DNA of 23,154 nt from an uncultured Pseudomonadota bacterium (lineage in GTDB: Bacteria > Myxococcota_A > Polyangia > HGW-17), in NCBI GenBank assembly GCA_938004375.1, contig CALKWH010000206.1, positions 1 to 23,154 of the forward strand, written 5' to 3'. Below the pieces are notes generated by a model. The model was not told the DNA's origin, made no database searches, and saw only the letters and a program-made list of their open reading frames with translations. Made by a program: the position numbers and the translations under genes. Of the stretch, positions 6,921-23,154 are shown in pieces. Within the stretch, counting starts at the first letter, position 1, and each line of letters starts with the position of its first letter.

Positions 6921-8300
6921 CTACACCCAGGAGATGACGAAGACGTACAACAGGATGGTGAACACTTCGGACAGGCCCGACATGACCGAGCCGGCGGCCG
7001 AGGCGGGATCCAGGTTCATGCGCTTGAAGACCAGGGGGAGACAGGAGCCCGCCACGCCGGCGAAGACCATGCTCGCGAACACGGTCAGCCCCACGAGCAG
7101 GGGGAACGTCACCTGCAGGCTGGAGCCGTCGCCCCCGAAGACCGGCACCATCGAGAAGGCGAATGCGAACAGCCCGAAGATCAGGCCCAGCACCAGGCTC
7201 ATGACGGACTCCCGCCGCAGGACCTCGAGGAAGTGGCCCCACTTCACGCGGCCCAGGGCGATGCCGCGGACCATCAGTGAGCCGGCCTGGTTGGCGATGG
7301 CCGAGGAGAGCACCAGCAGGATCGGGATCATCAGCAGGAAAAAGAGGTGGTTCCGGTCCGGTTCGCTGAAGAAGGGACGCCGGAAGGCCAGGATCAGGGA
7401 CGACAGCACGCCGGTCAGGAGCGGGAAGAAGATGCTGGTCAGGCGTGGCCGGAACCGCTCGGAGAAGGAGTCCTGGAAGTACTCGATGTCCTGGCCCGCG
7501 CCGGACATCTTGAAGATGTCCTCGGTGGCCTCCTCGCGGATGACCTCGATCACGTCGTCGACGGTGATGACGCCGACCATCCGGTTGGTGTCATCCACGA
7601 CCGGGACCGCCAGAAAGCCGTACCGCTGGACGATCTCGGCGACCTCCTCCTGGTCCATGCTCACCGGCACCGAGATCACCTCGGGGGTCATCAACTCCCG
7701 CAGGGTGGTGACCGGCTTGCAGGTGACCAATTGGCGAAGGGAGACCACGCCGGCGAGCTTCTCGGCGGAATTGTTCACATAAATATAGAAGGTTGTCGCG
7801 TAGTCCTCGGAGGAGCCCTGGAGGAAGTTGATCGCCTCCCCGGCGGTGGCGGTCTGCGGCAGCGCGAGGAACGACGGGTTCATGATGCCGCCGGCGGTGG
7901 AGGCGTCGTAGGCCATCAGTTCCTCGACGGCCTCCTGGTCCTCGTCCTTGAACAGGTTGAGCAGCTTCTCCTTGAGGTCCTCGTCGAGCTCCTCGAGCAG
8001 GTCGGCGAGATCGTCGGAGTCCATGTTCCCCAGGATGCGGGCGGCGTCGACGGGGTCGAGGGCGGAGATCAACTCCACCGCCACGGGCAGGTCGATCTCG
8101 CCGAGGACCTCGGCCTTGACCTGGTCGTCCCCGCAGTGCTCGAAGAGTCGCTTGCGGTCAACAGGGGTGAAATCCCGGAAAAAATAGGCCAACTCCGCGG
8201 GGTGGCGCTTGGATAATATCTTCCTTAAAGGTCCATAGGCGTCCCGATGCAGCAACTTGTTCACGGTGTTGGCCAACACCTGGAGTTTGGGGTTCTGCAT
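6921..8300 (-). CDS. mgtE: MgtE-family magnesium transporter
   Basis: A Mg2+ channel or transporter of 459 residues. An N-domain of superhelical repeats (DPVDAARILGNMDSDDLADLL), two CBS domains (about 140-200 and 205-260) and a five-helix membrane domain from about 290 to 458 are in the usual order. In the CBS linker, LMAYDASTAGGIMNP is typical. The membrane part has ANQAG and LDPASAAG. In Thermus MgtE the last helix carries a TTxxD-like motif whose Asp lines the pore; here the aligned stretch reads SGLSEV, putting Glu445 at that place. A good ribosome site AGGAGG precedes the ATG. It is first in an operon with recO and diverges from the RodZ-like gene. Confidence 0.93.
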   Translation of the reverse strand: MQNPKLQVLANTVNKLLHRDAYGPLRKILSKRHPAELAYFFRDFTPVDRKRLFEHCGDDQVKAEVLGEIDLPVAVELISALDPVDAARILGNMDSDDLADLLEELDEDLKEKLLNLFKDEDQEAVEELMAYDASTAGGIMNPSFLALPQTATAGEAINFLQGSSEDYATTFYIYVNNSAEKLAGVVSLRQLVTCKPVTTLRELMTPEVISVPVSMDQEEVAEIVQRYGFLAVPVVDDTNRMVGVITVDDVIEVIREEATEDIFKMSGAGQDIEYFQDSFSERFRPRLTSIFFPLLTGVLSSLILAFRRPFFSEPDRNHLFFLLMIPILLVLSSAIANQAGSLMVRGIALGRVKWGHFLEVLRRESVMSLVLGLIFGLFAFAFSMVPVFGGDGSSLQVTFPLLVGLTVFASMVFAGVAGSCLPLVFKRMNLDPASAAGSVMSGLSEVFTILLYVFVISWV

Positions 8301-15326: not shown

Positions 15327-17144
15327 ATGTGCGGAATCGTAGCTGCCGCTGGAACCGAAAACGTCATCCCCATGCTCCTGCAGGGCCTGCAAAAGCTTGA
15401 ATACCGAGGCTACGACTCCTCCGGGATCGCGTTCTTCGACAACAAAAAGATCCATATCATCAAAGAGGTCGGGAAACTGTCGCGTCTCGCCGAGCTCCTC
15501 CAGACCCATCCGGCCGCCAGCCCCACGGGCATCGGCCACACGCGCTGGGCCACCCACGGCAAGCCGTCCACGATCAACTCCCATCCCCATTACTACGAGG
15601 GGGTCGCCGTCATCCACAACGGCATCATCGAAAACTACGCCGAGCTCAAGGCTAAAATCATTGCACAAGGGCACATATTTTCAAGCCAGACCGACACCGA
15701 GGTGATCAGCCACCTCATAGCGAACGCCCTCAAGGCGGGCCATGCCCCCCTCGAGGCCATCTCCCGCGCCCTGGAGGCGTGCAAGGGCACCTGGGCGCTG
15801 GCCATCCTCATCCAGGGTTACGAGCAGCAGGTCTGGCTCGCCCGCAAGGGCAGTCCGCTCTTCATCGGCGCGGGCGCCGGCTTTCACCTCGTGGCCTCCG
15901 ACATTCCCGCGATCCTGCCCTTCACCCAGCGGATCCTGCCGCTACAGGATCATGAGCTCGCCGAGCTCAGTGCTTCGGAGCTTCGCATCTTCACGAGCGA
16001 CCTGCACCCGGTCACCCGCGCCTTCAAGACCGTCGCCTACAACCCTTTGATGGCTGAAAAGGAAGGCTACAAACACTACATGCTCAAGGAGATCTTCGAG
16101 CAGCCGCGGGCGGTCTACAACACCATCACGGCGTATCTCCACCACGAAGACTACACCGTCGATGTGCCCGGAATTCCTGGTGACTTCCCGATGCCGGACA
16201 AGATCTTCATCGTCGCCTGCGGCACCTCCTATTACGCCGGCCTGGTGGGCAAGTTCTATCTCGAACAGGCCACCCGCATTCCGGTCGAGGTTGAAATCGC
16301 CTCCGAGTTCCGGTACCGCGATCCCCTGGTGCTCCCCAGCCATCTGGTCATCGCCATTTCGCAGTCCGGTGAGACCGCCGACACCCTGGCCGCCATCGGC
16401 ATCGCCCGGCAGAAGGGCGCACGCATCCTGGCCATCACCAACTCGCCTCATTCCCAGATTCACCAGATCGCCGACGCCCGACTCGAGACCATCGCCGGCC
16501 CCGAGATCGGCGTGGCCTCCACCAAGGCTTTCACCACCCAGCTCGTGGGACTGCTCGTCCTCAGCCTCTACCTCGCCCAACGCCTGGGTCGCACCGAGCT
16601 CGTCTCCTCCTGGATCGACGCCCTGTTCGATTGCCCCAGCCAGATGCACCACATCCTCAACCAGGCACCCCAGATCCAGGTCATGGCTCGGCGTTACGCC
16701 CATGCCACCCATTTCCTGTACCTGGGTCGTGGAAATCTCTACCCCATCGCCCTCGAAGGTGCCCTCAAACTCAAGGAGATCTCCTACATTCACGCCGAAG
16801 GCTACCCCGCCGGCGAGATGAAGCACGGTCCCATCGCCCTGATCGACGAGGACCTGCCCACCGTCGTGCTGGCTGTCCGTAACGCGCACTACGAAAAGAT
16901 CATGAGCAATCTCGAAGAGGTCCTCTCCCGCAACGCCAAGGTCCTGGCCGTGGCCTCGGCTTCGGACATGCACATCGGCACCCTGGTCAACGACCTCGCG
17001 CTCATCCCCGCCGAGGTGCCCGAGGTGATCCAACCCCTCCTGTGCATCCTGCCTCTGCAGTTGCTCGCCTATCATATCGCCGACTTCAAGGGCACCGACG
17101 TCGATCAACCACGCAACCTGGCCAAATCCGTCACCGTCGAGTGA
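15327..17144 (+). CDS. glmS: Glutamine--fructose-6-phosphate aminotransferase (isomerizing)
   Basis: Makes glucosamine-6-phosphate from fructose-6-phosphate and glutamine, the first step to UDP-GlcNAc for peptidoglycan and LPS. The start is fixed by MCGIVAAAG: Cys2 becomes the N-terminal nucleophile of the Ntn glutaminase after Met removal. GAGGAG is six bases upstream; the frame opens nine codons earlier but those would block the Cys. The glutaminase domain covers about 2-215 (LEYRGYDSSGIAF, TRWATHGKPS). Two SIS sugar-isomerase domains follow (CGTSYYAG near 298, SQSGETADTL near 344, KHGPIALID). The C-terminus DVDQPRNLAKSVTVE is the universal ending. The length of 605 is normal. Confidence 0.98.
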   Translation: MCGIVAAAGTENVIPMLLQGLQKLEYRGYDSSGIAFFDNKKIHIIKEVGKLSRLAELLQTHPAASPTGIGHTRWATHGKPSTINSHPHYYEGVAVIHNGIIENYAELKAKIIAQGHIFSSQTDTEVISHLIANALKAGHAPLEAISRALEACKGTWALAILIQGYEQQVWLARKGSPLFIGAGAGFHLVASDIPAILPFTQRILPLQDHELAELSASELRIFTSDLHPVTRAFKTVAYNPLMAEKEGYKHYMLKEIFEQPRAVYNTITAYLHHEDYTVDVPGIPGDFPMPDKIFIVACGTSYYAGLVGKFYLEQATRIPVEVEIASEFRYRDPLVLPSHLVIAISQSGETADTLAAIGIARQKGARILAITNSPHSQIHQIADARLETIAGPEIGVASTKAFTTQLVGLLVLSLYLAQRLGRTELVSSWIDALFDCPSQMHHILNQAPQIQVMARRYAHATHFLYLGRGNLYPIALEGALKLKEISYIHAEGYPAGEMKHGPIALIDEDLPTVVLAVRNAHYEKIMSNLEEVLSRNAKVLAVASASDMHIGTLVNDLALIPAEVPEVIQPLLCILPLQLLAYHIADFKGTDVDQPRNLAKSVTVE

Positions 17145-17180
17145 TCGGACGCGCGCCCCGAGGTAGGAACGCGTCAAGCC

Positions 17181-18740
17181 ATGACCCTGTCAGAAGTACT
17201 CTTCGCCGTTGCCAGGAGCCTGAAACCCTTTCGGGCCCGACTCATTCTCGCCCTGGGATTCATCCTTCTGCACACGGCCTTCGGTTTTTTCCTGATCTTC
17301 TCCACCGGACGGTTCGCCCTGTCCACGCTCCCGATCTTCATCGTCCTGCTCTTCTCGCTGCACCACCTGCTGTCCGTCTTCGATGACTGGATTCTCACCA
17401 GCGTCTCCACCCGGTGGGTCTCCCAGACCCGTAAAAAGAGTCTTCAGGCTTTTTTGTCCACCCGTGACAAGTCCACTCAGAACAGCGTCCTTGATTGGAG
17501 TGGGCTCCAACTCGAGATTCAATGGCTCGGAGAATCCATTTTTTCCCTGCTTCGCGGTACCCTGCGAAAAATCCTGCAAATTTTCGTTTTCTCCGTCGCG
17601 CTGATCTGGCTGTCTCCGAGTCTCTTTCTCTTTTGTGTCGCCCTATTTCTGGCTGTCTTCCTGCTGGGTTTTTTCCTCGGGCGTTGGATCAACCGGGAAC
17701 AGGAAGACGTCATCCTCGCCCAATCCGCGGTCGCCAATTTCGAGCTCGAGGCGGCCCGGGCGATGCCCCTCGTCAAAGCCTTCCGTCAGGCGGCGTTTTT
17801 TGCGCGCCTTCACGAACGCTTTTTGGATTCAACGACGACCCGATCCATCCGGCTCGCCAGGCTCCGCATGATCGCGCATCCCATTCAAATCGTACTCTTC
17901 CTGGGTACCTTGACCGCCGTCTATGCGGTGGGTTCGTCCCAGGTCGCCGGCGGATCCCTCACCCAGACCAGTTTCCACTCCTTCATCGCCGGTCTCTCCT
18001 TGCTGCACGCTCCTCTGAGCGCTCTCTCCGCCGACATTTCGTCTTTTCTGAGTTATCGCTCCATGACGTTTCTGCCCCTGATCCTCGAAGACCCTGCAGA
18101 AGAAACCGCACAGCCGCCGTCGCCTGAGCCCTCTCGGATTGATGCATCTCAACTGCGTTTTCACTATCCCGATGGTCCGGAGCTCTTCACACCCCTCGAT
18201 TTCTCCCTCACGAAGGGCTCCATCATCGGCTTCGAAGGGCCCAACGGTTGCGGGAAGACCACCGTCGCGCTCCTGATCGCCGGCGTACTCAAGCCCACCG
18301 GCGGAGCCCTGGAATTTTCTCCTCTGGATTCCGGGCGATCCGGCGTGTCCTTTGTCGACCAGAACGGGACTGTCTTCACCCTCAATCTACAAGAGAATCT
18401 CTTCCTGGAATCAACACCGGTCACCGAATTCCTTCAAACACCTTATCTTCGACAGATCCGATCCGATCGGATCAACAATCAACTCAGTCAGGAGGCCCTT
18501 TCCTCCGGACAAAGAAAGACCATCAGCCTGCTGCGCGCCTTCGAACACAATCATGGCGTTCTCCTGGTGGATGAGCCGGAAAACGCCCTGGACCAGGAAA
18601 CTCAGCAGCAACTCCGAGATACGCTGAAAAGATTCAAGAACACCGAAAAATTGATCGTTCTTTTTTCACACAGCGAATTCTTTCTTTCCATTTGTGATCA
18701 ACGAATCCGAATACAACCTCCCCAACCGGAGGTCTCCTAG
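17181..18740 (+). CDS. ABC exporter half-transporter (fused membrane and ATPase domains)
   Basis: A 519-residue protein, short for a type IV exporter half-molecule (usually about 580). The N-terminal 300 residues carry hydrophobic helices (ILALGFILLHTAFGFFLIF, LFLFCVALFLAVFLLGFFLG, IVLFLGTLTAVYAVG). The ATPase domain has Walker A GPNGCGKTT (353-361), Q-loop FVDQNG, a signature LSSGQ (440-444) in place of LSGGQ, Walker B LLVDEP with Glu465, and switch His497 in SHSEF. The segment between Walker A and the Q-loop is a few residues shorter than usual. It would act as a dimer; the substrate is unknown. It starts 36 bp after glmS, probably co-transcribed, but with only a weak, distant GAGG ribosome site. 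Codons become less GC-rich towards its end. Confidence 0.88.
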   Translation: MTLSEVLFAVARSLKPFRARLILALGFILLHTAFGFFLIFSTGRFALSTLPIFIVLLFSLHHLLSVFDDWILTSVSTRWVSQTRKKSLQAFLSTRDKSTQNSVLDWSGLQLEIQWLGESIFSLLRGTLRKILQIFVFSVALIWLSPSLFLFCVALFLAVFLLGFFLGRWINREQEDVILAQSAVANFELEAARAMPLVKAFRQAAFFARLHERFLDSTTTRSIRLARLRMIAHPIQIVLFLGTLTAVYAVGSSQVAGGSLTQTSFHSFIAGLSLLHAPLSALSADISSFLSYRSMTFLPLILEDPAEETAQPPSPEPSRIDASQLRFHYPDGPELFTPLDFSLTKGSIIGFEGPNGCGKTTVALLIAGVLKPTGGALEFSPLDSGRSGVSFVDQNGTVFTLNLQENLFLESTPVTEFLQTPYLRQIRSDRINNQLSQEALSSGQRKTISLLRAFEHNHGVLLVDEPENALDQETQQQLRDTLKRFKNTEKLIVLFSHSEFFLSICDQRIRIQPPQPEVS

Positions 18741-18745
18741 GCTCA

Positions 18746-18761
18746 TGTTTCACGTGAAACA
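18746..18761. other. parS centromere site (ParB binding)
   Basis: TGTTTCACGTGAAACA is the exact 16-bp palindrome bound by chromosomal ParB in most bacteria, and one more matching base on each side (A/T) makes an 18-bp perfect palindrome. It begins five bases after the ABC transporter stop. Chromosomal parS sites cluster near oriC and seed the ParABS segregation complex. The linked recF and dnaN genes fit that position. ParA and ParB genes are not in the window. Confidence 0.95.
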
Positions 18762-18850
18762 TCTTTCCCTTGAATTGGCAACTGGTTTGGTTCGTCCGAG
18801 AAATTCCAGGAACTTTGCATTCCGAAGATTCCCGGATATGGTATTTTCGT

Positions 18851-18879
18851 TTGAAGGTCCAAATAGCGTCGTCTCTATT
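18851..18879 (+). promoter_or_regulatory. Weak candidate promoter for the small exported protein
   Basis: TTGAAG (18851-18856), a 17-base spacer and TCTATT (18874-18879), four of six matches each, 22 bases before the ATG at 18902. It sits about 90 bp downstream of parS in the 161-bp spacer. Confidence 0.3.
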
Positions 18880-18901
18880 CACTCATCTTGAGGTTAGACC
18901 C

Positions 18902-19471
18902 ATGTTCTTTCCCATCGTTCTTCTGACCAGTCTTCTACTACCCGGAGTCAATCCTCCTGCCACCGCTCCAGCGAAACCGCAGAACGTGTCGGTGCTGAAG
19001 TATGCGGGAGTGTCTCCTCCCAAGCCGGAATTACCCAAGGAAATTCCACCCCCTGGTGGTAAATGTGTGCTGCTCTGGCCAGGTTTTCAACTCAAACCTT
19101 CTCCGGGCGGCTCCCGATTCTTCTTCCTGTTCTCCACTTCCTTCCAATTGCAAAGCCAGGACCTTGCGGAAGATCAGGTTCGGATCCTCCGGTTGTCGGC
19201 TCCGGGATGCTCGGCCTGGCAAAAACACGCCTGGCGTGATTTGATCACGCGCTTTTTCCAGACTCCCATCGAGAAGGTGTCGTTTTTTCGGGATGACAAA
19301 GGCACCAAACTGATCGTGGATTTCCTGTACAAAACCGGTACCACCGTCGTCAAGCCGGAAATCACTCACCTGCCCTTCCTGAATTATTACCTGTTGATGG
19401 TCGATTTTCCGGCGGAGAAGAGCGCAACGACCAATCCGACGACTACCCCCCCTGCGACGCCAACCAAGTGA
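18902..19471 (+). CDS. Small exported protein of unknown function, possibly AMIN-like
   Basis: A 190-residue protein with an apparent Sec signal (MFFPIVLLTSLLLPG, cleavage probably after the TA of PPATA) and Pro-rich stretches after it and at the C-terminus. The core has alternating hydrophobic beta strands (SRFFFLFSTSFQL, DQVRILRL, KVSFFRDDKGTKLIVDFLY, YYLLMVDF), loosely like AMIN domains that bind cell-wall polymers or secretins. I do not recognise a family with certainty. The start is ATG at 18902 with GAGG eight bases before; an in-frame ATG at 18770 would put 44 non-signal residues in front. It converges with recF at 5 bp and follows parS. Confidence 0.7.
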   Translation: MFFPIVLLTSLLLPGVNPPATAPAKPQNVSVLKYAGVSPPKPELPKEIPPPGGKCVLLWPGFQLKPSPGGSRFFFLFSTSFQLQSQDLAEDQVRILRLSAPGCSAWQKHAWRDLITRFFQTPIEKVSFFRDDKGTKLIVDFLYKTGTTVVKPEITHLPFLNYYLLMVDFPAEKSATTNPTTTPPATPTK

Positions 19472-19475
19472 TCTT

Positions 19476-20495
19476 TCAGGTTGTTAACAGGATATCTCGA
19501 TCCGAAGCGCGATGAATCATTTTGCTGGTCACGATGACCTGAGACTCGGATTGATCCAGTACTTCCTGGATGTTTTGGAGGGTGTTGGAGTCGAGCTCTG
19601 ATTCGATGTCATCCAGGCATATCAGGCATTGAAGCCCAGCCTCTTGACGAAGCAACTCCATAAAAGAAAAGTGAAGGGCGAGATTGACGACCTTCTTTTC
19701 GCCGTTGCTGAAGGTGCTTCGAACGTCCTTGCCGTGTTCCAGGAAGTCCAACTCTTCTTTGTGACACCCGTATAGGATTCTCTCCTGGGCCAACTCTTTT
19801 TCCAGATAGTTGTCGGGAATCTGTCGCTTCCGGTATTTCATCTGACTGTTCTTGAGCTTGGGATTCAATCTCTCCAGATACTCTTGAAAGAGCGGATTCA
19901 ACCGGTCGATGAACCAACCGCGATCATCGGAAATCTCGTTGGAAATGACACGAAAGGCTTGGCTATCCAAATCCAATAGCGACCTTTTTCGTGTGGTTTT
20001 GGAGAGCAGAATCTGGAGTTTCTTCTGCCTGAGCGTGGAAAAATTCAGCAACTTTTGCAGATAGGGCTTTCGAAGAGCGCTCAGATAGCGATCCAGCAGG
20101 GCTCTTCGGATCTCCTGACTTTGAAAGAAAATCTGGGTTTCATCCGGCGAAAAGTACAGAATATTCTTCCCTCGGACAAACTCGAGGCTTTTGACTCTTT
20201 CCTGCTGCAGCATGAAAGATTTCTCCATATCGTTTATGGAAAAGGTCATGCCACTTCGTTGTGCGTTGATATCCGCCTGCAGATGAAAATAGGGTTCTCC
20301 TGTCTTCACGCAATCTCTCAGGGATTTGCGATTTCGAAAGCTTCTGGAGGTAAAGAGAATATAGATAGCCTCCAACAGATTGGTTTTTCCAGTCCCGTTC
20401 AGACCGAAAATATGTAGTTGTTTTCTCTGATCAATTTGTAGGGAAAAGTCTTTGAAATTCCTGAAGTTTTGTAGAAACAAATTCTCCAGGATCAT
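19476..20495 (-). CDS. recF: DNA replication and repair protein RecF
   Basis: SMC-like ATPase that with RecO and RecR directs RecA to gapped DNA and stalled forks. Typical features are the start LFLQNFRNFKDFSLQ, Walker A GLNGTGKT (31-38), SPDETQIF...RRALLDRYLS (RecF signature, about 116-139), an ABC signature variant FSNGEKK (262-268) instead of the common LSxGQxK, and Walker B LICLDDIESELD (D295-D296). At 339 residues it is a little shorter than usual (about 360). The start lies 7 bp after the dnaN stop with only a weak ribosome site, suggesting translational coupling. Its codons are clearly AT-richer than those of the left half of the window. Confidence 0.93.
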   Translation of the reverse strand: MILENLFLQNFRNFKDFSLQIDQRKQLHIFGLNGTGKTNLLEAIYILFTSRSFRNRKSLRDCVKTGEPYFHLQADINAQRSGMTFSINDMEKSFMLQQERVKSLEFVRGKNILYFSPDETQIFFQSQEIRRALLDRYLSALRKPYLQKLLNFSTLRQKKLQILLSKTTRKRSLLDLDSQAFRVISNEISDDRGWFIDRLNPLFQEYLERLNPKLKNSQMKYRKRQIPDNYLEKELAQERILYGCHKEELDFLEHGKDVRSTFSNGEKKVVNLALHFSFMELLRQEAGLQCLICLDDIESELDSNTLQNIQEVLDQSESQVIVTSKMIHRASDRDILLTT

Positions 20496-20502
20496 CCGGT
20501 TG

Positions 20503-21615
20503 TCAATCGAGCCGAATGGGCATGAGCACGGCGATGAAATTGCTGGTTTCGATGGGTTTGATCAGGGCCGGACTTTTCGGATTGTGTAAAAACATCGAAA
20601 ATTCCTTGCCTTGAATCTTGTTTACGATGGTATCAAAAAATTTGATATTGAAGGCAATCTGCATAGCTTCGCCGGTGAAATCAACTTCAATTTCTTCTGT
20701 GCCCTTACCCTTGAGGGTGTCGATACCGGTGAGTACGACGCTGTCTTTCTGTATTTTTAGAATCACACCAGCATCACTTCCTTCAAAAAGAAGGTTTATT
20801 CTCTTCAAGGCACCCAGAAAGTCTTCCTTGGGCATGACGAGACGATTGTCCTGATACTGGGGAATGACCTGCTCATAGGGGGGAAACTTGGAATCGATTA
20901 GTTTGATGTTCATGCGCGCACTGTCGGTGCGCAGTCCCAGTATCTTCAGTTCCTTGTCATAGTGCATTCCCACGTTGGCGGAGTCGTCGTTGATCATTTT
21001 CATGATGTCGTTGACTCCCTTTCGGGGAATGATGATGCCGTTGGGCACGCCGAATTTTCCCTCGTAGGGATATTCCGCGAGGGCGAGCTTGTGCCCGTCG
21101 GTGGCCACAGCCTTGGCGATGTTCTTCTCGGTCACCAGATAGATTCCGCCCAGATGCGGTTTGGTCTCGTCCGAAGCAACCGCAAACAGCGTGTGTTCGA
21201 GCAGTTCCCTCAGAATCTGCGCCTCAAAACTCACATAGGAATTGTCTTCATAAAAACTGAAGTTGGGGAAGTCCTCGTCGCGCAGCGCGTTGAGCTCGAA
21301 GCGACTCTTCTGGGCCGTGATCCAGATGGCATTGTCCTTTTTTTCGAGGGTGACTTCCTTGTGGGTGAGATTGGAAATCAACTGATAGAGCAATTTGCCG
21401 TTGACCGTGGCGGTCCCCGGTGCGAACACCTCGGCCTGGAACTCACTGGTGACCGAGGTGCTCATGTCAGTGGCCCGACACAGGATCTTACCGTCCTGTT
21501 GTGCGGTCAATTGGACGTTCGAAAGTATCGGCTGGATGCTTGCATTGCCTTCGGATATCTTCTGGGGAAGGAACAGGCCGTTGAGAAAAGTGGATTTGTT
21601 CAACGTGATTTTCAT
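20503..21615 (-). CDS. dnaN: DNA polymerase III beta subunit (sliding clamp)
   Basis: Ring-shaped processivity clamp of the replicative polymerase, 370 residues in three similar domains. Hallmarks seen are the MKITLNKSTFL start, TDGHKLALAEYP in the middle domain, LIDSKFPPYEQVIP, and the C-terminal MPIRL motif, here extended by one Asp. GGAGAGG stands before the ATG with a short spacer. It leads a dnaN-recF operon on the minus strand. The usual upstream neighbour dnaA is missing; instead the 5' side is a divergent spacer with repeated motifs and the zinc-ribbon gene. Confidence 0.97.
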   Translation of the reverse strand: MKITLNKSTFLNGLFLPQKISEGNASIQPILSNVQLTAQQDGKILCRATDMSTSVTSEFQAEVFAPGTATVNGKLLYQLISNLTHKEVTLEKKDNAIWITAQKSRFELNALRDEDFPNFSFYEDNSYVSFEAQILRELLEHTLFAVASDETKPHLGGIYLVTEKNIAKAVATDGHKLALAEYPYEGKFGVPNGIIIPRKGVNDIMKMINDDSANVGMHYDKELKILGLRTDSARMNIKLIDSKFPPYEQVIPQYQDNRLVMPKEDFLGALKRINLLFEGSDAGVILKIQKDSVVLTGIDTLKGKGTEEIEVDFTGEAMQIAFNIKFFDTIVNKIQGKEFSMFLHNPKSPALIKPIETSNFIAVLMPIRLD

Positions 21616-21757
21616 GACACCTCTCCAGGTTGGAGAAACTATCCCTTTTTGAGAGAGAAAGCAATCCGACTTTTGAGGGGATTAAACAGAAGAAATGAAG
21701 AATAGGCCTGCCGCCAATGTTGGGATTTTCCCATTTCTTTTGTTTGTATGAATGTTT

Positions 21758-21851
21758 TTATCGACAGGCCTCCGCGATGAACGGAGGGTTGTGGACAGGT
21801 CCATGTGATTGGATTGTCGGCAAGTCTCCCGGATGGTTTTTTGTCGACAGC
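21758..21851 (+). repeat. Four-copy iteron-like direct repeat (TTRTSGACAG)
   Basis: Copies at 21758-21768, 21789-21799, 21814-21824 and 21841-21851. Three match TTRTSGACAG fully; the third is degenerate in its last bases. All have one orientation. Confidence 0.6.
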
Positions 21852-21872
21852 TGTCGTCGACCGGTTTACAAT
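21844..21872 (+). promoter_or_regulatory. Near-consensus sigma70 promoter of the zinc-ribbon gene
   Basis: TCGACA (21844-21849), a 17-base spacer and TACAAT (21867-21872), five of six matches in each box with ideal spacing. The predicted start of transcription is about 20 nt before the ATG. The -35 box overlaps the fourth copy of the direct repeat, so whatever binds the repeat would likely block this promoter. Confidence 0.65.
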
Positions 21873-21898
21873 TCTTCGATTTTTTTCCGAGGAGTGTC

Positions 21899-23112
21899 AT
21901 GAAGAAACGTTGTATGCAGTGCCAGGCAGTCCTGATGGAAAACGTGACGCAGTGTCCGCTCTGCTATCGGGACATCGTTGATAGCGAACCCCTCTTTTCC
22001 CTCGAAGATGTGCCCACGCTCTTCGTGAAACGGAAAAATGACAAGATATTCGGCCCATTTCCCAAGGCCAAGGTAGTTTCCCTCGTGTCCACTGGGAAAC
22101 TGGAGGCCACCGAAGCGGTGTCCGATGATCGAGAAACCTGGGTGCCCGTGTCCGGGATCCAGGACTTTGCCGCCTTGCTCAAGGCGGGCGCCCCGGTGGC
22201 CGAGCTCCGCGAGCAGCCGGATCTTCCGGCACACAAGACTCCCGGCGCTGGCTCGGTCGAGCTTCCGGGGCTCAAGCCGCCGCCGGTCGCGGCCGATCTG
22301 CCCGGGCTCAAGCAGGCGCCGGTCGCGGCCGACCTTCCGGGGCTCAAGCCGCCGCCGGTCGCGGTCGACCTTCCGGTCCTGAAACCGGCGGGGGCCATCC
22401 CGAGTTCCCAGATCCCGACCCTTCTGGTGCCGGGGAAAAACGCCGGTACTCCCACTCCCGTGACCGATCTCCCCGGGATGAAGACGGACCTCCCGGGTGT
22501 TCGAACGGACCTACCTGGAATGAGGACGGACCTCCCGGGGGTGCGCACGGATCTTCCGGGAGCTCGGACGGACCTCCCGGGAATGCGCACGGATCTTCCG
22601 GGAGCCCGGACGGACCTCCCGGGAGCTCGGACGGACCTCCCAGAACTGAAAATCGAGCTACCCGCCCCCGCCTCCTCGTTTCCCGGTATGCGCGAGGGGA
22701 AGCCCTCCAATCTGGAGAACGAGGACCTGGAACGGGAAAAAAATCGGGATTTCTCCCTGCCGCCGTTGGGGGGTGGGGTGGTTCCGGAGATGAAATTGGA
22801 GTTGAATCCCGGTAAGGCGCATCCCCTCGAGTTGGGGGATCCGGACGCAGGCAAGCCGGGTGAACCGGGCGTCAAGATTCCCCCAAGCCTGTTCGATAGC
22901 TCCGATGGGGTGGATCTCTCGGCGTTGGGAGGTGGGAGTGTGCCGGGTCCGGGAAACAAGAGTGGTCTGGATCTGGACCACCCACCCTCCTCTTTGCCTC
23001 CGTCGGGGATGTCCCTCTCGCTGAGCGATGAAGAGTTGGCACCCCAGGGAGCCGTGGCCGGCCGACCTGTCGACGGAACTTCTCGGTCGAAGAAGACCGG
23101 CAAGGAAAGCAG
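21899..23112 (+). CDS. Zinc-ribbon/GYF_2-like protein with DLPG repeats (3' truncated)
   Basis: A partial protein, about 404 residues before the contig runs into adapter. Residues 5-22 form a CxxC-x10-CxxC zinc ribbon (CMQC, CPLC). Residues about 40-95 look like a GYF_2/DUF4339 domain (LFVKRKNDKIFGPFPKAKVV, then ETWVPVSGI). A low-complexity stretch follows: three 12-residue units LPGLKPPPVAAD from residue 122, then nine heptads DLPGxRT (190-252), then acidic, Gly/Pro-rich sequence. ATG at 21899 is chosen for the GAGGAG four bases upstream; the frame opens at 21809 but lacks that site. The apparent stop at 23132-23134 lies inside the adapter and is false, so the natural C-terminus is unknown. 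The architecture resembles deltaproteobacterial zinc-ribbon regulators or scaffolds; its function is unknown. Confidence 0.8.
22262..22369 (+). repeat. 36-bp tandem repeat (3 units) in the zinc-ribbon/GYF_2-like gene
   Basis: Three in-frame 36-bp units at 22262, 22298 and 22334 encode LPGLKPPPVAAD-like dodecapeptides, followed by a partial fourth (LPVLKPAG). Confidence 0.9.
22466..22654 (+). repeat. 21-bp tandem repeat (9 units) encoding DLPG heptads
   Basis: Nine in-frame 21-bp units encode DLPG(M/V/A)(K/R)T, the last diverging to DLPELKI. Synonymous and position-five differences (Met, Val, Ala) distinguish units, so the array has aged by point mutation and shuffling rather than being freshly amplified. 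Confidence 0.95.
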
Positions 23113-23154
23113 AGATCGGAAGAGCGTCGTGTAGGGAAAGAGTGTAGATCTCGG
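23113..23154. other. Illumina TruSeq adapter contamination
   Basis: From AGATCGGAAGAGC at 23113 onward all 42 bases match the reverse complement of the TruSeq universal adapter (…GTCGTGTAGGGAAAGAG… …ATCTCGG). It is not biological sequence. It should be trimmed, and nothing translated from it should be trusted. Confidence 0.98.

Follow-up and report, generated by a model that had tools for sequence, protein, structure and literature searches.

In many bacteria, the replication origin lies beside dnaA. Where oriC occupies a dnaA-dnaN locus, an AT-rich gap beside dnaN holds several 9-bp elements and coincides with a switch in GC skew, and the DnaA boxes follow the consensus TTATCCACA or TTWTNCACA (PMC5043019 and PMC11317965, both as excerpted). 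The chromosomal ParABS systems of Myxococcus xanthus and Pseudomonas aeruginosa have parS sites with a 16-bp core near the origin. Excerpts of one review describe plural parS sites near oriC for most species with ParAB-parS, give 22 sites of TGTTCCACGTGGAACG for M. xanthus, and state that a single parS suffices (PMC7022226).

The initiator itself has also been described in some detail. Residues 432-435 and 438-439 of DnaA helix 5 contact bases (excerpt of PMC5043019), and Asp433, reported to be highly conserved across all classes, reads box position 7 together with Leu438 (excerpt of PMC8235120). In Epsilonproteobacteria, a clade-wide change of helix 5 goes together with a changed box that has a TTCAC core, with T at position 5 and variation at residues 435 and 438-439, whereas the 433-434 dyad is highly conserved (PMC5043019, same excerpt). 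The ATP-DnaA boxes of H. pylori, E. coli, and C. crescentus also vary in the part read by Asp433 and Leu438, but there it is position 7 that differs and Asp433 is conserved (PMC8235120, in part).

The locus described here lies in a window of 23,154 nucleotides from an uncultured Myxococcota-type bacterium, which is the whole stretch of DNA that was analysed (Table 1). Like the known chromosomal ParABS systems, it has a parS of the 16-bp core type near a likely origin, and two relatives carry parA-parB genes of the chromosomal kind; in those two relatives, however, parAB lie on a contig other than that of parS, and there is one parS per genome. Like a dnaA-dnaN locus, it has an AT-rich gap with 9-bp elements and a skew switch, but dnaA is on another contig in the relatives and the elements are of the TTATCGACA type rather than the known consensus. 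Unlike in the Epsilonproteobacterial and ATP-DnaA cases, the altered box base is a G at position 6, and Asp433 is lost from the DnaA of the relatives. We consider it likely (with a probability of roughly 0.78) that the palindrome is the centromere parS of a chromosomal ParABS system beside oriC, and that oriC most likely corresponds to the gap between dnaN and the divergent gene.

Table 1. Features of the window, with positions counted from its first letter
Feature	Positions	Strand	Remarks
glmS	15327..17144	+	SIS and glutamine amidotransferase domains (Pfam), name presumed from these; a more distant conserved neighbour on the side of parS
ABC transporter-type gene, 519 aa	17181..18740	+	PF00005, PF00664; conserved neighbour left of parS
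parS	18745..18762	none	18-bp perfect palindrome holding the 16-bp core TGTTTCACGTGAAACA
189-aa gene, function unknown	18902..19471	+	between parS and recF; no Pfam match
recF	19476..20495	-	PF02463, E 1.7e-24; several relatives named RecF by their sources
dnaN (DNA polymerase III beta clamp)	20503..21615	-	PF00712, PF02767, PF02768
Putative oriC, 283-bp gap, 46% GC	21616..21898	none	between dnaN and the divergent gene
DnaA-box-like TTATCGACA	21758..21766	+	G001 and G003 carry it at the aligned position
DnaA-box-like TTGTGGACA	21789..21797	+	31 bp beyond the first; G001 has TTGTAGACA at this offset
DnaA-box-like TTGTCGACA	21841..21849	+	52 bp after the second; identical in G001, G002, G003
Divergent gene, 5' part	21899..23112	+	ended by the contig edge; 1239 aa in L001
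Adapter artefact, not genomic	23113..23154	none	42-base exact match

The parS palindrome and its surroundings

A pattern search of the window found that TGTTTCACGTGAAACA matches the parS core exactly (18746-18761, no mismatches), and this is the sole match even when up to three mismatches are allowed, against a mean of 0.04 in 100 dinucleotide shuffles. No perfect palindrome in the window is longer than the enclosing ATGTTTCACGTGAAACAT, which is also the only one of 18 bp; the runner-up has 16 bp (8265-8280). The enclosing palindrome sits 4 bases past the stop codon of the ABC-type ORF (17181-18740), in a 161-bp gap that extends from the end of this gene at 18740 to the start of the 189-aa gene at 18902. 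The stop codon of recF is 714 bp away, and the near and far ends of dnaN are at 1.74 and 2.85 kb. These values bear out the earlier note, which had claimed a perfect parS palindrome at 18745..18762, in a non-coding gap just past a stop codon and 0.7-2.9 kb from recF and dnaN, and had judged a chance match of 16 bases very unlikely. An 82-codon ORF on the minus strand overlaps parS, but the palindrome is conserved in three relatives in which its flanks have diverged, which argues against this ORF being coding. The site thus contains TGTTNCACGTGNAACA, the palindromic core of a ParABS centromere, and it is conserved, non-coding, and, as judged by synteny and skew, origin-proximal.

The three relatives were found through an alignment of RecF and 12 homologues; they are HGW-Deltaproteobacteria-22 (G001), a Myxococcota MAG (G002), and HGW-Deltaproteobacteria-17 (G003). 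All 16 genes of the window have syntenic counterparts in G001 and G002, and so do the nine for which the G003 contig has room; identities to the window are 88-89% for dnaN and 52% for RecF. A parS occupies the same gap in all three, exact in G001 and G002 and with one mismatch in G003. Other sites in these genomes have two mismatches each (two in G001, two in G002, and one in G003). One such parS-like site, TGCTCCACGTGAAACA, is common to G001 (C201:70822-70837) and G002 (C30:43993-44008), and its G001 copy is about 51 kb from parS.

The search was extended to the family of G001 (8 genomes) and to 96 genomes of the class. Further parS copies, whose search the earlier note had recommended, did not appear in the family: TGTTNCACGTGNAACA occurs exactly once in each of the eight genomes, although these are draft MAGs and the single copy may be an undercount. 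At least one copy is present in 58 of the 96 class genomes. The gene order around parS is seen in full in four of the eight family genomes and by half in three, and in one the parS contig carries none of these genes. In the four cases with an unbroken contig, parS lies between the block of dnaN, recF, and the small gene and the block of the ABC gene and glmS. One of these is G072, a more distant family member in which dnaN, recF, the 189-aa gene, parS, the ABC gene, and glmS follow one another on a single contig, with 4.7 kb between parS and recF. In G019, G037, and G085, parS follows the matched part of the ABC gene at a distance of 0.3 to 1.6 kb, and this gene adjoins glmS; the dnaN block is on a separate contig in G019 and G037 and was not found in G085. 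The parS of G010 is on a 3.1-kb contig without these neighbour genes.

Several other features of this region are worth recording. The 189-aa protein is kept beside recF in seven of the eight family genomes (the G085 locus was not seen). Its gene is 75-77% identical in G001-G003, where the protein is better conserved than RecF, and 43-60% identical in G010, G019, G037, and G072. RecF is divergent in this clade, with 17 matches of at least 51% identity (two of them the window's own) followed by matches at about 30%. A GC trough centred near recF (17000-22000) reaches 48% in 2-kb windows, compared with 64-71% at least 5 kb leftward, and third codon positions share it (0.58-0.67 in four genes versus mostly 0.83-0.93 further left); the minimum of the trough in G001-G003 is 41-43%. 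The divergent gene has two CxxC motifs at its N-terminus in L001, and the portion present in the window has no Pfam match. Its ORF end is an assembly artefact, given that the last 42 bases of the window (23113-23154) are the reverse complement of an Illumina TruSeq adapter. At the other end, ATTTCG is repeated nine times in tandem (positions 1-54), which may reflect the assembly or the contig end. An Rfam scan of the window gave no matches at the gathering threshold. A plasmid origin of this DNA was also considered and rejected, since the dnaN matches in 337 plasmid records are all below 60% identity and thus indicate no plasmid kinship.

GC skew and DnaA-box-like elements upstream of dnaN

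The cumulative GC-skew minimum is 0.7 kb from parS in the window and 1.1, 4.0, and 1.1 kb from it in G001, G002, and G003. Because gene strand can mimic a skew switch, plus-strand genes were scored alone. Their GC3 skew is negative left of parS (-0.23, -0.11, -0.18, and -0.25 in the window, G001, G002, and G003) and positive beyond dnaN (+0.14, +0.05, +0.04, and +0.04, the window value coming from one gene). Minus-strand genes show no sign change, being positive on the left in three of the four (-0.04 in G003) and present right of parS in G002 only, where the skew goes from 0.07 to 0.19. The strand-corrected step at dnaN is 0.16, 0.20, and 0.29 in G001-G003, and the window has too few right-hand genes for this measure. 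Counting against a clean placement, the best single split in G001 (0.19) is near a contig end and not at dnaN. The skew check that the earlier note had proposed thus comes out in its favour, the plus-strand genes switching sign near parS in the window and three relatives, with the caveats that the four profiles come from related genomes that are not independent, that they cover local contigs rather than whole chromosomes, and that the switch typical of an oriC rests mainly on the relatives.

The gap upstream of dnaN contains TTATCGACA and two variants that resemble the DnaA box TTATCCACA with C6 replaced by G. All three occurrences of TTNTNGACA in the window fall in this 283-bp gap (21758, 21789, 21841), and G001 has the same spacing. 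Over eight dnaN gaps, TATCGACA is the top 8-mer with 12 occurrences, level with three shifted neighbours (11 in a previous count, made on five selected gaps). It is found in six of the eight, namely those of the window, G001, G003, G019, G037, and G072. The G002 gap carries TTGTCGACA without TATCGACA and weaker versions only, and G010 has no box in its 448-bp stretch, which runs to the contig edge. When each gap was shuffled 1000 times, the observed count of TRTCGACA was never reached for the window, G001, G003, G037, and G019; it was reached 7 times for G072 and 11 times for G002, and G010 has no TRTCGACA. The pattern was derived from four close genomes before G019, G037, and G072 were considered, and these three are therefore fresh tests, with the reservation that G072 has one box at the edge of the stretch, perhaps within the start of the divergent gene. 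No gap among the eight contains TTWTNCACA, a lone TTGTTCACA occurring in G019, and a cluster of DnaA boxes of known consensus is accordingly lacking there. Two classical TTWTNCACA boxes in the window (18662 and 20583) were set aside, both being outside the dnaN gap.

The genome-wide totals of TTATCGACA, with the number inside the gap in parentheses, are 5 (2) in G003, 40 (3) in G037, 32 (2, one at the edge) in G072, 54 (1) in G019, 5 (1) in G001, 5 (0) in G002, and 52 (0) in G010; G085 has 9, and its gap was not seen. Among 40 dnaA/recF loci of other class genomes, the element occurs once each in two (G091 and G046). An inverted pair, TGTCGATA-N30-46-TATCGACA, is found in 4 of the 96 class genomes, once in each and always at the dnaN gap, with a spacing of 42 in G019, G037, and G072 and of 34 in G003; its reversed control is found in none of the 96. 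The pair is absent from G001, G002, G010, G085, and the window gap. It was defined from the four genomes that carry it, so that only its absence elsewhere is informative. Among the matches listed from open-licence literature, TTATCGACA together with DnaA turned up in two papers, both on Staphylococcus aureus, with one occurrence each.

The DnaA recognition helix and the identity of the repeats

DnaA proteins of the relatives show the expected domain III/IV homology: PF08299 scores above its cut-off, the proteins align to 8btg (E 3.3e-53), and equivalents of Arg399 and Pro423 are present (by eye, E. coli numbering). The recognition helix reads KSHSSV in G001-G003, RAHSTI in G010, and KAHSTV in G019 and G037, compared with RDHTTV in B. 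subtilis. Thus, the Asp433-His434 dyad is broken in all six family DnaA proteins, which have Ser or Ala in place of Asp433 and keep His434. G072 and G085 gave no DnaA match. Outside the family, position 433 in 41 class genomes is Asp in 37, His in one (G048), and Ser in one (G046), with two unread. Among the best 120 protein matches listed to the G001 DnaA, the 12 closest (57-99% identical) have Ser in 11 cases and Thr in one, although the nearest of these may be sisters of G001 and not all are independent of G001-G003. The other 108 have Asp in 93, His in three, and Asn in one, with 11 unread by the pattern.

The altered base, position 6, adjoins the position-7 contact, and loss of the acidic side chain might permit G there. 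We tentatively propose, at odds a little short of even, that this Myxococcota-type family has re-specified its initiator, such that DnaA has lost the near-universal Asp433, the boxes have changed from TTATCCACA to TTATCGACA, and the origin is upstream of dnaN instead of beside dnaA, with one parS. The link between helix and box is a correlation, and G046 argues against any simple rule. Loss of Asp433 as a sufficient cause of G-containing boxes was rejected on the basis of this genome, which has Ser433 and whose 14 copies of TTATCGACA are on 14 different contigs. Separately, the DnaA of G048 (L122) has His433 (KHHTTV), and there are two TTATCCACA boxes in its 7.5-kb dnaA-recF stretch, so that losing Asp433 does not by itself have to alter the box.

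Perhaps the TTATCGACA repeats are instead transcription-factor operators for dnaN and the divergent gene, with no role for DnaA and with the loss of Asp433 being unrelated. We regard this explanation as doubtful but serious. The repeats lie between divergent genes, and the third is followed after about 20 bp by a -10-like TACAAT (21867-21872), and some of the gap may therefore serve as a promoter; this box near the -10-like element is conserved in four genomes. Inverted pairs would also suit a dimeric repressor. Furthermore, G046 combines Ser433 with an absence of dnaN-adjacent boxes, its nearest TTATCGACA being 3.6 kb upstream, and G010 combines Ala433 with the box-free stretch noted above. 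Against an operator, the repeats match TTATCCACA at eight of nine places, they are located at the skew switch, and they occur in both orientations with varied spacing, two of them standing head to tail with 2 bp between them in G019; for E. coli DnaA, a spacing of 2 or 3 bp within box pairs is the preferred one (excerpt of PMC11317965). Overall, the surroundings of parS suggest a variant origin code.

The position of the origin

The search for dnaA proposed in the earlier note was successful in part: the gene was found in three relatives (G001-G003), but on a contig other than the one that carries dnaN, recF, and parS. It is conceivable, though in our estimation unlikely, that parS is real and that replication starts at dnaA, with the dnaN-recF-parS region merely being near the origin. 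Epsilonproteobacteria have their origin beside dnaA (excerpt of PMC5043019), and in G001-G003 no contig links dnaA to parS. However, no TTATCCACA-like box with up to one mismatch is present in the stretches covered at dnaA, which measure 40 kb in G001, 37 kb in G002, and 6.4 kb in G003, TTNTCGACA is absent from the same stretches, and the looser TTNTNGACA occurs just once each in those of G001 and G002. Moreover, the strand-corrected skew step at dnaA is only -0.05 in G001 and 0.06 in G002. The separation of dnaA from recF was dismissed as a novelty of this family, given that 19 class genomes (chosen examples rather than a whole-class count) also have dnaA and their best RecF-like match on different contigs.

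The partner proteins of parS were sought in the relatives as well, as the earlier note had advised. An HTH_ParB domain was found in two of the three (G001 and G003), in each case with parA adjacent, and there was no HTH_ParB match in G002. These ParB proteins align with the structures 7bnk (E 1.8e-59) and 6t1f, from Myxococcus and Caulobacter. At the four positions that set ParB or Noc specificity (Caulobacter 173, 179, 184, and 201), they have Arg, Ala, Arg, and Gly. Arg173 and Gly201 are ParB-like, Noc proteins having Gln and Arg there, and Arg184 is unusual. It is very improbable that the palindrome is a chance match, a Noc-type site, or some other operator, for although its single copy departs from the plurality reported for most ParAB-parS species, one site is enough according to the same review excerpts (PMC7022226), the core is exact, its place is conserved with one copy per genome across the family, the reversed control pattern occurs in just 2 of the 96 class genomes, and two positions carry ParB-type residues.

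Taken together, the synteny of parS in relatives, the parAB genes, and the skew switch support the anchoring of this contig in a ParABS/oriC domain claimed in the earlier note, without proving it. On our preferred reading of a parS beside oriC, ParB encoded elsewhere in the genome would load onto parS and spread, and the bound ParB would let ParA move the freshly copied origin region. Replication would most likely begin 2.9 kb from parS, in the AT-rich gap upstream of dnaN, where DnaA, made from a gene that is not beside dnaN, would probably bind the few spaced boxes related to TTATCGACA.

The parS site itself is ordinary: it belongs to a known kind, is well supported, and seems to mark the origin region. 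What surrounds it offers a natural example, open to testing, of a possible joint change in an initiator and the site to which it binds. If true, a clade without Asp433 and with one altered box base would show drift of an essential protein-DNA code, and it would explain why origins in genomes of this sort could go unnoticed in standard box searches.
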